Shown here: positions 42,867 to 56,947 of the stretch, piece by piece
Position numbering within the stretch: position 1 is the stretch's first letter
How the letters are laid out: each line of letters begins with the position of its first letter
NCBI GenBank assembly: GCA_019637915.1
Contig: JAHBUV010000001.1
Span: 2,760,565 to 2,824,564 of the forward strand
Reading direction: 5' to 3'
Length of the DNA stretch: 64,000 bases
From: Pseudobdellovibrionaceae bacterium
GTDB lineage: Bacteria > Bdellovibrionota > Bdellovibrionia > Bdellovibrionales > Bdellovibrionaceae
Position numbers and translations under genes: made by a program
Notes under the pieces: generated by a model
Database searches by the model: none
Seen by the model: the letters and a program-made list of their open reading frames with translations, nothing else
What the model was told of the DNA's origin: nothing

Positions 42867-44438
42867 ATGAAGTTTCGCGCATTGCCACCTGAAACGGCGT
42901 TTGAATACAATAACGGGCACATGGGAAGCTCGCGATTCGGCCGCCGTCATTTTCTCCGCACCAGCGCCGCCCTGACGGGGGGATGGGCTTTGTCATCCTG
43001 CGCGTCGATGGAGCGTCTGTTCGGGCCCGATCAGGGCGTCTATGACGATGAAGTGCTGATCGTCGGCGCCGGGGCGGCGGGCCTGATGGCGGCCTATGAG
43101 CTCAAAAAAAAGCAGATCCCTTACCGCATCATCGAGGCTTCACCGCGCTTGGGCGGGCGGGTGCGCACCCTTCATCATTTCAACGGCGATCAGCAGTTCG
43201 CCGAGCTCGGCGCGGAGTTCATCGACGGCCGCCACGAGACGGTGTTCGCCCTGTGCTCGGAGCTGAGCCTGCCGGTGGACGCCTTGCCGGATCGACTGGG
43301 CGAGGCCGGCGGGTTTTTCGTGCAGGGCTCGCAGGTGATCCCGCGGCGGGACCTGCTGAAAGACCTGCAGCCTTTGGTCAGCAAGCTCGTGCGTTTGCGC
43401 TTGCAGATCACCGGCGACGAGGAGAACGCCGCCCAGGCCTTCGCCGCCGGCGCCAGCGAGGACGCGGCCCGTCTGGATCTGATGTCCACCGAGGCGCTCG
43501 TTGATCAGCTCGCCCAGGGCCTTTCGCCGCGGGCGGCGGCCTACATGAAGCGCGCCTCCCTGGTGCAATTCGGCGTGGAGCCTTCGCGCCAGTCCTGTCT
43601 GCACCTGCTGATGTCCCTGGATCCCGAGGCGCGCTCCTCGGGTCCGTCGCGGGTGCGCGGCGGGATGGGGAATCTCACGCAGGCCCTCTATGAAAGGGTT
43701 TGCGGCGTGCTGCCGGAATTTTTCGTGCGTTTCAAAACCAGGCTCCTGTCGATGCGGGACGAGGGCGGGTTTTTCGAGTGCCGCGTGCAGTCCCCTCAAG
43801 GGCGCCAGAGCCTGAGGGCCCGTCATGTCATCCTGGCCTTGCCGCCCGCCGCCCTTCGCCGGGTGGAGGGGCTCGCCAACCTCAAGATCGCCGCCATCCG
43901 CCGCGAAGCCGTGACGGCCATGAGATTCGCCCATCATTCGCGCACCATCGTGGGTTTCAGCGACCGTTTCTGGAACCTTCGCGGCGAGGGCCCGCTGGGG
44001 AGCGGCGCTTTGATGGGGGACTTGCGCCTGCAGAGCTGCTGGGATTCCAGCCGCGGCCAGGAGGGGCGTTCGGGTCTGATCACTTTCACCACCGCCGGGG
44101 AAGAGGGTTTGAACCTGGGGGCCGACGCCCCGGAGCTGGGATTGCGCGATCTGGAGCGCGTCTGGAAAAAGGTTTCAGCCTTGTCCGACAAACGCTCGGC
44201 GGTGCAGAACTGGTCGCGGGTGCAGGGCCTGGAGGGTTCGGTCACCGTCTATGCGCCGGGGCAGTTCAGCCGCTTCAACGGCGTTTTCCAGGAGGCCGAT
44301 TACCAGGGCCGCCTGGCCTACGCGGGGGAGCACACCTCGGCCGGCCATCACGGCCGCATCGAGGGCGCTTTGGAGAGCGGCCGCCGGGCCGCGGCCCAGG
44401 TGATCGCGGCCCTCGAGTCGGCCGTGAAAAAAGGATAA
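42867..44438 (+). CDS. Tat-exported FAD amine oxidase, probable lipoprotein
   Basis: A 523-residue flavin amine oxidase. The N-terminus carries a twin-arginine signal (SRFGRRHFLRTSAALTGG) and then a lipobox-like LSSC, so it may be folded with FAD in the cytoplasm, exported by Tat and lipidated. The FAD-binding GxGxxG is VLIVGAGAAGLMAAYEL, followed by RIIEASPRLGGRVRT. The C-terminal FAD motif is LAYAGEHTSAGHHGRIEGALESGRRAA. The ATG at 42867 has GGGAGGT 5 nt upstream; the ATG at 42921 is an alternative closer to the Tat motif. Substrate (amine, polyamine or amino acid) is unknown. Confidence 0.88.
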   Translation: MKFRALPPETAFEYNNGHMGSSRFGRRHFLRTSAALTGGWALSSCASMERLFGPDQGVYDDEVLIVGAGAAGLMAAYELKKKQIPYRIIEASPRLGGRVRTLHHFNGDQQFAELGAEFIDGRHETVFALCSELSLPVDALPDRLGEAGGFFVQGSQVIPRRDLLKDLQPLVSKLVRLRLQITGDEENAAQAFAAGASEDAARLDLMSTEALVDQLAQGLSPRAAAYMKRASLVQFGVEPSRQSCLHLLMSLDPEARSSGPSRVRGGMGNLTQALYERVCGVLPEFFVRFKTRLLSMRDEGGFFECRVQSPQGRQSLRARHVILALPPAALRRVEGLANLKIAAIRREAVTAMRFAHHSRTIVGFSDRFWNLRGEGPLGSGALMGDLRLQSCWDSSRGQEGRSGLITFTTAGEEGLNLGADAPELGLRDLERVWKKVSALSDKRSAVQNWSRVQGLEGSVTVYAPGQFSRFNGVFQEADYQGRLAYAGEHTSAGHHGRIEGALESGRRAAAQVIAALESAVKKG

Positions 44439-44492
44439 AAAAGGGCCCGTGTCATGACCGCGGCGGGGCTTTCGGGTTAATTTCGGGGGCCT

Positions 44493-45173
44493 ATGAAGAA
44501 AACTGCCGTCCCGAGCAAAGCCGTCGTCACCCGCGAGGAGAAAGTCCGAAGCCTTCTCGCCAAAGTCATGCCCTCGCCGACGGTGCTGAACAGCTACTCG
44601 GACGACGAGAAAATAAAAATGATTGAGGAACGCTTCACCGAGATCCTCGAGATCCTGGGCCTCGATCTGTCCGATGATTCCATGAACCGCACGCCCCACC
44701 GCATCGCCAAGATGTACGTGAAGGAGCTTTTCAGCGGCCTGGACGCGGCGAACTTCCCGAAGATGACGGTGATCGAGAACAAGATGCGGTACGATCAGAT
44801 GATCGTCGTGCAGGACATCGACGTCATCTCGTGCTGCGAGCATCATTTCCAGACGATTCAAGGCGCCGCGACGGTGGCCTACATCCCGGACAAAAAGGTC
44901 ATCGGCCTGTCCAAAATCAACCGCGTGGTCGAGTACTTCGCCCGCCGCCCGCAGGTGCAGGAGCGCCTGACGAAGCAGATCGCCGACTGCCTGCAGCTCG
45001 TGCTCGAGACCGAGCACGTCGCCGTGCACATCAACGCCAAGCACTTCTGCGTGATCGCCCGGGGCATCCAGGACGCCAACTCCTCCACGATCACCTCCGA
45101 CCTGCGCGGCGATTTCAAGCACCGCACCGACACCCGCAAAGAATTCCTCCTCCACTGCCGCAACCACATCTAA
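44493..45173 (+). CDS. folE: GTP cyclohydrolase I
   Basis: A 226-residue enzyme that converts GTP to 7,8-dihydroneopterin triphosphate, the first step of folate (and biopterin or queuosine-type) synthesis. Zinc ligands are visible: C115 and H118 in [10 protein letters not shown], and C181 in [20 protein letters not shown] and [17 protein letters not shown] are core motifs. About 35 extra N-terminal residues precede the core. The stop codon TAA forms the first bases of a 49-bp inverted repeat arm. Confidence 0.97.
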
Positions 45174-45218
45174 AAGGTGCCAGGTCCTGTTTGGTAACGC
45201 GCCGCTTGCCCGCCCCGG
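45170..45218. repeat. Left arm of 49-bp inverted repeat around the GNAT gene
   Basis: The sequence from CTAAAAGGTGCCAGGTCCTG at 45170 through 45218 is found inverted at 45810-45858 with 46 of 49 identical bases. It begins inside the folE stop codon. Its outer end matches the palindromes at 720-795 and 56842-56908. Confidence 0.9.
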
Positions 45219-45260
45219 ACGGGGGTGGCGTTGCGATCTCCCATGGTTTAATTTTTTCCC

Positions 45261-45779
45261 ATGCTTGAAATCCGCCGCGCCACGGACGCGGACGCTTCGA
45301 TCCTGGCCGAACTGGGGCGAAAGACATTCGTTGAGACCTTCGCCGATGACAACACTCCGGAGGACATCGCGCTTTATGTCGCGGAAACCTTCGGGACGGA
45401 TCAACAGCTCCGGGAAATTCAAGATCCTGCCCGATGGATCGAAATCGCCTGGTTCGCCGGCACCGCCGTCGGCTTTTTGCATCTGCTGAAAGGTCAGCCC
45501 GACCCCTCCGTCCAGGGACCGAAGCCTTTGGAAATTCTCCGGCTCTACGTCGATTCGCGCTGGCATGGAAAAGGGGTGGGGGCCGCCCTGATGGAAAGAA
45601 GCTTGAAAATCGCCTTTGACGGCGGATTCCAAACGCTTTGGCTGGGCGTGTGGGAACGAAATTTCAGGGCGCAGGCTTTTTACCGGAAATTCGGTTTTGA
45701 GATCGTTGGCCAGCATGTTTTTCGCCTCGGCAAAGACGAACAAACTGACTTCATCATGACTCGGGAACTCACGCTTTAA
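45261..45779 (+). CDS. GNAT family N-acetyltransferase
   Basis: A 172-residue acyl-CoA-dependent acetyltransferase. LEIRRATDADASILAEL opens the fold. LEILRLYVDSRWHGKGVGAALMERSL holds the acetyl-CoA pyrophosphate loop (HGKGVGAAL), and LGVWERNFRAQAFYRKFGFEIVG is the typical end. The substrate is not known; the class includes protein N-terminal, antibiotic and polyamine acetylases. It stands alone between 49-bp inverted repeats, between folE and pepN. A 9-bp hairpin (AAATCCCCG with CGGGGATTT) follows the stop codon. By eye its base composition is less GC-rich than its neighbours; this needs counting. Confidence 0.9.
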   Translation: MLEIRRATDADASILAELGRKTFVETFADDNTPEDIALYVAETFGTDQQLREIQDPARWIEIAWFAGTAVGFLHLLKGQPDPSVQGPKPLEILRLYVDSRWHGKGVGAALMERSLKIAFDGGFQTLWLGVWERNFRAQAFYRKFGFEIVGQHVFRLGKDEQTDFIMTRELTL

Positions 45780-45809
45780 AAATCCCCGGAGAGGCAGTTT
45801 CGGGGATTT
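45780..45809 (+). terminator. Hairpin after the GNAT gene
   Basis: AAATCCCCG (45780-45788) pairs with CGGGGATTT (45801-45809) across a 12-nt loop directly after the stop codon. The last three T are followed by GC, so it is a weak terminator at best. The right inverted repeat arm begins at the next base. Confidence 0.5.
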
Positions 45810-45858
45810 CCGCGGCGGACAAGCGGTGCGTTACCAAACAGGACCTGGCACCTTTTAG
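45810..45858. repeat. Right arm of 49-bp inverted repeat around the GNAT gene
   Basis: Inverted copy of 45170-45218 (three mismatches). Read on the minus strand it starts at the stop codon of pepN, just as the left arm starts at the stop codon of folE. Confidence 0.9.
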
Positions 45859-48473
45859 AGCAGGGTGGGTGCCAGCAGTTCCCGCGTGTTCTTCGACAGG
45901 CTCGGCTCGTCGAGGATGCGGCGGATTTCCTTCAGCGCTTTTTCGCGCAGTTCCGGCGCGAGTTTGTTGATCACGTTGAAGGAGGCGCTCAGTCGCGCCG
46001 CCACTTGCGGGTTCTTGGCGTCGATCTCGAGGATGCGGTCGGCGAAGAAATCGTAGCCCGGGTTTTTGGGATCGTGGAAGCACACGAGGTTCTGACCGAA
46101 GACGCGCAACAGGGCGTAGACGTTGTTGGGGTTCGTCAGCTGGAAATCCGGGTGCTTGACCAGGGCCTTCACGGTGTCCTGCGTGTCGGCGCGGCTGGTG
46201 TTCGCCTGCACCGTGAACCATTTGTTCAGCACGACCGAATCACCGCGCCAATCGCGGTGGAAGGACGCCAGGGCCTCGTCGCGGCGGCGGTCGTCGCTGT
46301 CCGCGAGGATCATCAGCGCCGACATGCGGTCGGTCATGTTCTGGGCCTGCGTGTACTGACGATGAACCAGGTCGAGCACTTCCGGATCGCCGGTCTCGGC
46401 CAACACCGAAAGCGCCAGGTTTTTCAACGCGCGCGCCCCCATGCTGCGCGGGTCGATGGCTTCGCCGGAAACTCCCTGCCAGCGGCGCACCAGACCCAAA
46501 AGTTCGCTGCGGTTCAGGCGGGCGAGGGCGGCCACGAGGGCTTGACGGGCGGCCCGGAAGGCGGCGGCATCGATCCGATCCAACTGCTGGGCGAGCATCG
46601 CGTCCGAAGGCAAGGCGAGAAGCGCCGCCTGATAAGCCGGATCCAGGTCGGCGCGCAGCGCCTCGGACCAGGCCGACAGGTAATGCTCGTCCGGGCGCAG
46701 TTCGCGTCCGACTTGGTGATCGGCGACCAGGCGGGCGAGCACCCGCAGACCCGCCTGCTGGGCGGCCTCGCGGCGGTTGAAGCCGTCCGTGTCCTTCGCC
46801 ATCAGGAAGAACAGCTCCTGGTCCGGTCGATCCCAGTGCAGGACCACCGGCGCGGAAAATTCCCGCAGCAAAGACACATGGGGTTTTTGCGTCAGGCCCG
46901 TGAAAACGAAACTTTGTTCCGCCTCTTTCAGCTCGATCAGCGGCAGGCCGTCCGAGTTCAGGCGCACCTGCCGGCTTTGCAGCGGCAGCTCCCGGCCCTG
47001 ATCGTCGAGGAAGCCCAGGCGGATCGGGATCTGAAAAGGCTTTTTCTCGCTCTGCCCGGGCGTCGGCGCGCAGCTCTGGCGCAGGTGCAGGACGTACTCG
47101 CCGCGGTCGGCGCGCCATTCGTCGCGAGCGTCGATTTTCGGCGTGCCGGCCTGGGAGTACCACAATTTCAGTTGAGTGAAATCGGCCTCATTGGCGTCGG
47201 CGATGGCGGCGGCGAAATCATCCGTCGTCACGGCCTGGCCGTCATGGCGCTCGAAGTACAGATCCATGCCGCGGCGGAAACCTTTTTTGCCCACCGTCGT
47301 CTGCATCATGCGGATCAGCTCGGCGCCTTTTTCGTAGATGGTCATGGTGAAGAAGTTGTCGACGGCGAGGCACGACTCCGGGCGCACCGGGTGCGCCGTG
47401 GGTCCGGCGTCCTCGACGAACTGGCGTTCGCGCAGGGAATCGACGTCCTGGATGCGCTGCACGCCCCGGTCCGTCATGTCGGCGGAGAACTCCTGGTCGC
47501 GGAACACGGTGAGGCCTTCTTTCAGCGACAGGTGGAACCAGTTCTGCAGGGTCACGCGGTTGCCCGTCCAGTTGTGGAAGTACTCGTGGCCGACGACGGA
47601 CTCGATGGCCAGGAAGTCATGGTCGGTGGCGCTCTTCGAGTCCGCCAGGACCAGGCGCGAGTTGAAGATGTTCAAGCCCTTGTTCTCCATGGCGCCGGCG
47701 TTGAAGTCATCGATGGCGACGATCATGTAATCGCCGAGGTCGTACTCGCGGCCGAAGGCCTCTTCATCCCACTTCATGGATTTTTTCAGCGAGCTCATGG
47801 CGTGATGGCAGCGGTCCTGCTTGCCGTGGGCGGCGTAGACCTCCAGGTTCACCTTCCGCCCCGAGCGCGTTGTGAAGCTGTCGCGGATGACGCCGAGATC
47901 CCCGGCGACGAGGGCGAAGAGGTAGCACGGCTTCTTGTGCGGATCGCGCCACAGGGCCTCGTGACGGCCGTTGCCGAGATCCCGGGTGTGCGCGCGGTCG
48001 CCGTTCGAGAGCAGCACCGGGTATTTCTTTTTGTCCGCCTCCAGGCGGACCGTGTAGCGGGTCATGACGTCCGGGCGGTCGAGGAAGTAAGTGATGCCGC
48101 GGAAACCCTGCGCTTCGCACTGGGTGACGAAACAGCCGTTGGATTTGTAGAGCCCCTCCAGCGCCGTGTTGTTCTGCGGCTCGAGGCGGGTTTCCACTTC
48201 CAGGAGAAACCGGTCGGGAACGCGGGGAATGACGAGCTTGCCCTCGGATTTTTGATAGTCCGTTGCGGGAAGTTCCCGGCCGTCCAGCTGGAGGGAGCGC
48301 AGGTCGAGATCGCGGCCATCCAGTTCCAGCGCCGCGCCCGGCGTGCGGCGGACGATTTCCAGGCGCGACCGCACCCGACAAAAGTCGTCCTGCAGATCGA
48401 AGTCGAGTTCGACGGAGTTCACGTCGAAGGCCGGGGGCGCGTAGTCTTTGAGATAGATTCTTTGGGTCGTCAT
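45855..48473 (-). CDS. pepN: Aminopeptidase N (M1 family)
   Basis: An 872-residue zinc aminopeptidase of the bacterial PepN type and the usual length. Substrate-anchoring motif GAMEN is at residues 260-264, zinc motif HEYFHNW at 296-302, and the third ligand E319 lies in SLKEGLTVF. TYFLDRPDVMTRYTV near residue 128 is typical of PepN. The C-terminal half holds the helical superhelix. No signal peptide, so it works in the cytoplasm on small peptides. Its stop codon lies in the right inverted repeat arm. Confidence 0.97.
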   Translation of the reverse strand: MTTQRIYLKDYAPPAFDVNSVELDFDLQDDFCRVRSRLEIVRRTPGAALELDGRDLDLRSLQLDGRELPATDYQKSEGKLVIPRVPDRFLLEVETRLEPQNNTALEGLYKSNGCFVTQCEAQGFRGITYFLDRPDVMTRYTVRLEADKKKYPVLLSNGDRAHTRDLGNGRHEALWRDPHKKPCYLFALVAGDLGVIRDSFTTRSGRKVNLEVYAAHGKQDRCHHAMSSLKKSMKWDEEAFGREYDLGDYMIVAIDDFNAGAMENKGLNIFNSRLVLADSKSATDHDFLAIESVVGHEYFHNWTGNRVTLQNWFHLSLKEGLTVFRDQEFSADMTDRGVQRIQDVDSLRERQFVEDAGPTAHPVRPESCLAVDNFFTMTIYEKGAELIRMMQTTVGKKGFRRGMDLYFERHDGQAVTTDDFAAAIADANEADFTQLKLWYSQAGTPKIDARDEWRADRGEYVLHLRQSCAPTPGQSEKKPFQIPIRLGFLDDQGRELPLQSRQVRLNSDGLPLIELKEAEQSFVFTGLTQKPHVSLLREFSAPVVLHWDRPDQELFFLMAKDTDGFNRREAAQQAGLRVLARLVADHQVGRELRPDEHYLSAWSEALRADLDPAYQAALLALPSDAMLAQQLDRIDAAAFRAARQALVAALARLNRSELLGLVRRWQGVSGEAIDPRSMGARALKNLALSVLAETGDPEVLDLVHRQYTQAQNMTDRMSALMILADSDDRRRDEALASFHRDWRGDSVVLNKWFTVQANTSRADTQDTVKALVKHPDFQLTNPNNVYALLRVFGQNLVCFHDPKNPGYDFFADRILEIDAKNPQVAARLSASFNVINKLAPELREKALKEIRRILDEPSLSKNTRELLAPTLL

Positions 48474-56841: not shown

Positions 56842-56908
56842 CCCAAAAGGTGCCAGCTCCTGTTTGGGGATGCAGCGCATCCCCAAACAGGAGCTGGCAC
56901 CTTTTGGG
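56842..56908. repeat. 32-bp-arm palindrome between tamA and msrA
   Basis: Two perfect 32-bp arms (56842-56873 and 56877-56908) with a 3-nt loop. The outer part reads AAAAGGTGCCAGCTCCTG toward the centre on both strands, nearly the same as the repeat around the GNAT gene. It lies between two genes of the same direction, in the leader of msrA. Confidence 0.92.
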
Positions 56909-56913
56909 AACGC

Positions 56914-56947
56914 GCGGTGTCCACCAAGAGGAGCTGGCACCCTTTAG
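56914..56947. repeat. Single diverged arm of the same repeat at the tamA stop codon
   Basis: On the minus strand CTAAAGGGTGCCAGCTCCTC begins at 56947, with the TAA being the stop codon of the tamA-like gene. Another short fragment (AGGGTGCCAGGCTCC) is at 56808-56822. Confidence 0.75.

Follow-up and report, generated by a model that had tools for sequence, protein, structure and literature searches.

Background

Single-copy Y1 transposase genes with inverted flanking REPs, which are also dispersed between genes, have been described in work on REPtrons and BIMEs (Nunvar et al., 2010, PMC2817692). Inverted doublets of extragenic REPs that form long hairpins are known as REPINs (Bertels and Rainey, 2011, PMC3116915), and REP subclasses that do not carry the GTAG tag have been described as well (PMC6006769). 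In the sections of Di Nocera et al. (2013, PMC3733652) drawn on here, TIRtrons (TIRYT) consist of a RAYT-like gene within non-GTAG terminal inverted repeats that form a moderate family of single or dimeric copies; these sections do not name Bdellovibrio and do not describe passenger genes between the repeats. The literature searched contained nothing relevant on a RAYT or REPIN of Bdellovibrio or the Bdellovibrionaceae.

Here we describe a locus of a Pseudobdellovibrionaceae bacterium (GCA_019637915.1) at which a GNAT acetyltransferase gene is enclosed by inverted repeats. Its genome shares with REPtrons a single-copy Y1 transposase gene between inverted REPs of a kind that is also scattered intergenically, with REPINs the inverted extragenic doublets and long hairpins, and with TIRtrons a RAYT-like gene in terminal inverted repeats without GTAG. 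There are also differences: the repeat tag begins with GGTGCCAGG rather than GTAG; the gene between the arms at this locus encodes an acetyltransferase and not a RAYT; and whereas the hairpins here have 3-nt loops within a 61-bp near-perfect palindrome, the loop of the GNAT doublet is the size of a gene. The locus thereby reveals a Bdellovibrionaceae RAYT-linked REP family whose copies sit on stop codons and whose palindromes stay near perfect as their inner sequence changes.

A GNAT gene within inverted repeats between folE and pepN

The window, that is, the whole stretch of 64,000 nt analysed (contig JAHBUV010000001.1, positions 2,760,565 to 2,824,564), has the following features at this site:

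44493..45173, forward strand: folE (GTP cyclohydrolase I; Pfam GTP_cyclohydroI, E 4.6e-64), whose TAA stop overlaps the left arm
45169..45219, forward strand: left arm of the inverted repeat, one REP unit of subtype B and member of a genome-wide family
45261..45779, forward strand: intact gene for a PaiA-like GNAT N-acetyltransferase of 172 aa (Pfam Acetyltransf_1, 4.5e-18)
45780..45809, forward strand: candidate hairpin AAATCCCCG...CGGGGATTT, 3' of the GNAT gene, from direct reading of the sequence
45809..45859, reverse strand: right arm, one REP unit of subtype B in the opposite orientation to the left arm, overlapping the pepN stop codon
45855..48473, reverse strand: pepN (M1 aminopeptidase; Pfam Peptidase_M1 and DUF3458), convergent to folE

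A preliminary description of this DNA had reported 49-bp inverted repeats around one short gene, each starting in the stop codon of the gene outside it. Both observations hold, and the arms are slightly longer than described: they measure 51 nt each, are complementary at 48/51 positions (94%) and lie 589 nt apart, the left one over the folE TAA (45173) and the right one over the pepN TAA (45855). A 27-nt core of the arm is found at two places in the whole window, namely the two arms, where shuffles expect 0. The left arm consists of the tag AAAAGGTGCCAGGTCCTGTTTGG followed by the imperfect hairpin GGTAACGC-GCC-GCTTGCCC. When the arms were folded individually as DNA, neither did better than shuffles, and the individual REP hairpins were therefore rejected as strongly folded DNA. 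A known RNA family was likewise rejected, with no Rfam match at 44400-46600. The arrangement can be explained without pairing of the arms as a 49-bp RNA stem, which had also been proposed.

Among PDB entries, the GNAT protein is closest by sequence to PaiA (1tiq, 1.7e-29), and its similarity to the PaiA-type spermidine/spermine N-acetyltransferases extends over the whole length. However, its match to the NCBIfam equivalog model SpmdActasePaiA (2e-36) falls under that model's own cut-off; the protein is PaiA-like by sequence. The comparison of base composition with neighbouring genes, as the preliminary description had recommended, gave a positive result: the GC content (56.3%), GC3 (65%) and codon score of the gene are each the lowest among 45 window genes (mean GC 62.4%, mean GC3 82%), a set selected mechanically in which a few ORFs may be false. 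Homologues at E<=1e-30 are sporadic: among 369 genomes of the phylum, 6 have one, its own included, and the identities (40-44%) do not exceed 44%. The gene is single-copy in its own genome, and the one same-genus genome compared (G001) has no orthologue. Because of this atypical composition and sporadic distribution, the GNAT gene looks to have been acquired horizontally and recently.

The arms belong to a dispersed REP/REPIN-type family

When the genome (3.32 Mb) was searched with a 16-mer from the arm, 33 sites were found that matched exactly or with one mismatch. A 20-mer with up to 3 mismatches detected 51 half-sites, compared to 0 for a reversed-pattern control. The arms are ordinary members of a dispersed REP/REPIN-type family with more than 50 half-sites in the genome. 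As in REP/REPIN families, the repeat is short, extragenic and present in many copies, mostly as inverted doublets (51 half-sites, 19 doublets). Its commonest form is a 61-bp near-perfect palindrome, AAAAGGTGCCAGGTCCTGTTTGGnnATGCG followed by its reverse complement, and one such copy lies in the window:

56845..56905, no strand assigned: solo REPIN of 61 bp that belongs to the family of the arms (DNA fold -38 kcal/mol, z -13.5)

A further REP unit follows about 40 nt beyond this REPIN and ends near 56941.

The 19 solo palindromes all have a half-site offset of +34 nt, and 18/19 pair at 24-26 of 26 positions. Since they do so despite 14 different inner half-sequences, the palindrome is kept while its sequence changes. 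Such near-perfect palindromes with varied inner halves suggest that one arm is corrected from the other. The conserved tag at the foot of the hairpin is GGTGCCAG and not the tetranucleotide GT[AG]G. We therefore do not class the family with the canonical GTAG REPs and term it REP-like or TIRtron-like.

Both arms belong to subtype B of the family, which occupies four places in the genome, these arms being two of them, and none in 99 relatives. Over 40-45 nt the arms are each other's closest copies, and they agree at several bases outside the hairpin where other copies differ. Counted from GGTGCC, the first 30 nt of the right arm match the REP at genome position 2346415 at every base, and the left arm differs from them by one base. 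As subtype B exists at only four places, the two arms probably have a common local origin.

A RAYT gene enclosed by the same repeats

The genome encodes a transposase within repeats of this family:

G000:C1:670750-671388, own genome: RAYT, a Y1-transposase gene (L075; Pfam Y1_Tnp above cut-off)

The best NCBIfam match of this RAYT is REP_Tyr_transpos (1.4e-15), below the model cut-off. The gene is enclosed by 69-nt inverted arms with two REP units in each. We compared it with its relatives and found that, among the retrieved loci of 18 close RAYTs (L075 itself and those of relatives at an identity of at least 57%), 14 place the gene between inverted arms of the GTGCCAGG type, whose positions are near-constant. 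L075 is one of these 14, in each of which a Y1 (HUH) transposase is flanked by two inverted repeats of one family, as in known REP/REPIN systems. Such arms were present around 0/12 more distant RAYTs (45-51% identity). This distribution ties the repeat to the RAYT lineage, in the manner of REPtrons and TIRtrons. The arms of the GNAT gene share family and topology with the RAYT element, with the acetyltransferase in place of the transposase.

The RAYT gene (L075:1751-2389) has a GC content of 46.5% compared to about 63% for the 64-kb window, which suggests acquisition. A second Y1-transposase-like gene (G000:C1:2222738-2223337; L031, L077) lies in a 522-aa frame and is distant, at 38% identity to the RAYT.

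REP copies abut stop codons and fill convergent gaps

Analysis of gene context covered the REP neighbourhoods of the bacterium's own genome. In a hand count of these sites, about half of the sides facing the 3' end of a gene had the REP tag within about 4 bp of the stop codon, whereas no side facing a gene start had the tag that close. At several convergent gene pairs REPs occupy the entire gap as far as the stop codons, as at 627676-627776, where both stops are overlapped, with both ends at -2. Thus, the arms at the GNAT locus begin in the folE and pepN stop codons because the tag end of this family habitually coincides with a stop codon, and they are inverted because folE and pepN converge, with one REP on each stop codon.

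The same habit generates inverted repeats elsewhere. At 2845941-2847719 (L160) of the same genome, two genes, one for a small secreted-looking protein and one for an alpha/beta-hydrolase-like protein, lie between two arrays that constitute inverted repeats of 100 nt with 98% identity. We rejected this region as a cassette, as it is better read as two arrays, each in its own convergent gap. Long inverted arms alone are therefore no proof of a cassette, and caution is needed wherever gene orientation and a preference for stop codons can create long inverted repeats around a gene. A further candidate for an enclosure of the GNAT type, G000:C1:1502228-1503063 (L076), was rejected as a single REP and a REPIN on the stops of successive genes. 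There, the REP lies on one stop codon and the REPIN on the stop of the next gene, which encodes a DUF2239 protein and is flanked by both.

The folE-pepN gap in relatives

The preliminary description had proposed that a bare palindrome in the folE-pepN gap of relatives would support insertion of the gene into it; the gaps of relatives gave a mixed picture. In many relatives from the family, folE and pepN are adjacent without the GNAT gene, with 15-146 bp between their aligned ends. Two family relatives have a similar short palindrome in the gap, as AAAAGGTGCCAGGCACCTTTT in one (L064) and in a GGTACC version in the other (L053), but it is missing from most, and in the same-genus genome G001 another gene lies between folE and pepN without any REP. 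In no relative did we find a folE-pepN site that is marked by subtype B REPs but empty. The converse pattern, a gene conserved at this place in all relatives with the arms absent, was not observed: the gene is missing from nearly all of them.

The gene in the gap of G001 (L068) encodes 661 aa and was assigned as NHL-repeat-like by eye from its repeated sequence. Other genera carry still other genes between folE and pepN, and insertions may have occurred in this gap repeatedly.

Origin of the arrangement

Altogether, we consider it likely that the arms are two resident RAYT-linked REPs on convergent stop codons, with an acquired PaiA-like gene in between. According to this model, the resident family would have supplied one copy on the folE stop and one on the pepN stop, and the tag ends, abutting the stop codons of converging genes, would have produced the inverted pair. 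The acetyltransferase gene, acquired horizontally on this reading, occupies the loop between the arms, and we infer that it entered an interval already marked, or simultaneously marked, by the related REP pair. The arms would act as repeat ends and not as a recombinase-driven switch.

Three histories remain for this arrangement: insertion of the gene into a REP doublet, joint movement of doublet and gene, or spread of the REPs once the gene was in place. Insertion is weakened by the lack of any bare long-loop doublet in the bacterium's own genome, in which every +/- doublet has the 34-nt offset, although one relative (L148) has two complete REPs as a bare doublet with a longer loop. Against joint movement stands the lack of a known second copy of the unit, and against late spread to both stops the rarity of subtype B. 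Insertion of the GNAT gene into the middle of a standard 61-bp REPIN is disfavoured, as the arms share about 20 nt past the normal half-palindrome. The GNAT locus offers a concrete candidate case of a REP doublet with a gene as its load.

That two REPs were inserted independently, or by local spread, after the arrival of the gene, such that the inverted repeat is a by-product of convergence, is a possibility to which we give appreciable but less than even weight. Placement of the tag end on stop codons at many other sites fits this course of events, as do the arrays at 2845941-2847719, where inverted repeats arose from separate convergent gaps. Moreover, REP loci are clustered locally (5 neighbouring pairs within 2 kb vs 0.4 expected), and a comparison over 30 nt places the right arm no farther from the REP at 2346415 than from the left arm. 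However, half of the four subtype B places would then have to fall at this one locus, and independent insertion does not readily account for the bases past the hairpin at which the arms agree and other copies differ.

It is unlikely that the REP-GNAT-REP segment is a cargo-carrying REPIN that the RAYT, acting in trans, moved as a unit into the folE-pepN gap. The RAYT element has the same topology, a gene within inverted REPs; the GNAT gene is foreign-looking; the unit extends from one stop codon to the other, as the solo REP arrays do at other convergent pairs; and the closest match of each arm over 40-45 nt is the other arm. Against this, the same unit is not known from any second locus, the GNAT homologues examined in other genomes have neither REPs nor inverted arms around them, and one insertion beside one target alone would not set both ends on stop codons. 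The general proposition that an unrelated gene can travel as cargo in the loop of a RAYT system's REP doublets, moved in trans, is a shade more doubtful still; if true, it would make REPINs a vehicle of gene capture, beyond miniature repeats.

Of the alternatives offered in the preliminary description, insertion into a palindrome or a mobile cassette may apply, whereas the invertible segment is unsupported: long inverted repeats around one gene whose start is near one arm would suit a phase-variable segment flipped by a site-specific recombinase, but we regard this as highly improbable and rejected it, as no recombinase is encoded among the eight neighbouring genes scanned (37.7 to 52.4 kb), the arms belong to a dispersed family, a scan for promoter-like sequence gave no match between them, and the genes enclosed at other REP pairs are unrelated. 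Homologous inversion between the 51-bp arms at low frequency is always possible.

The hairpin at 45780-45809, absent from the output of a terminator scan with a loop limit of 8, is possibly a weak terminator of the GNAT gene itself, judging from its sequence. By analogy to the solo palindromes, the arms may insulate the folE and pepN transcripts.
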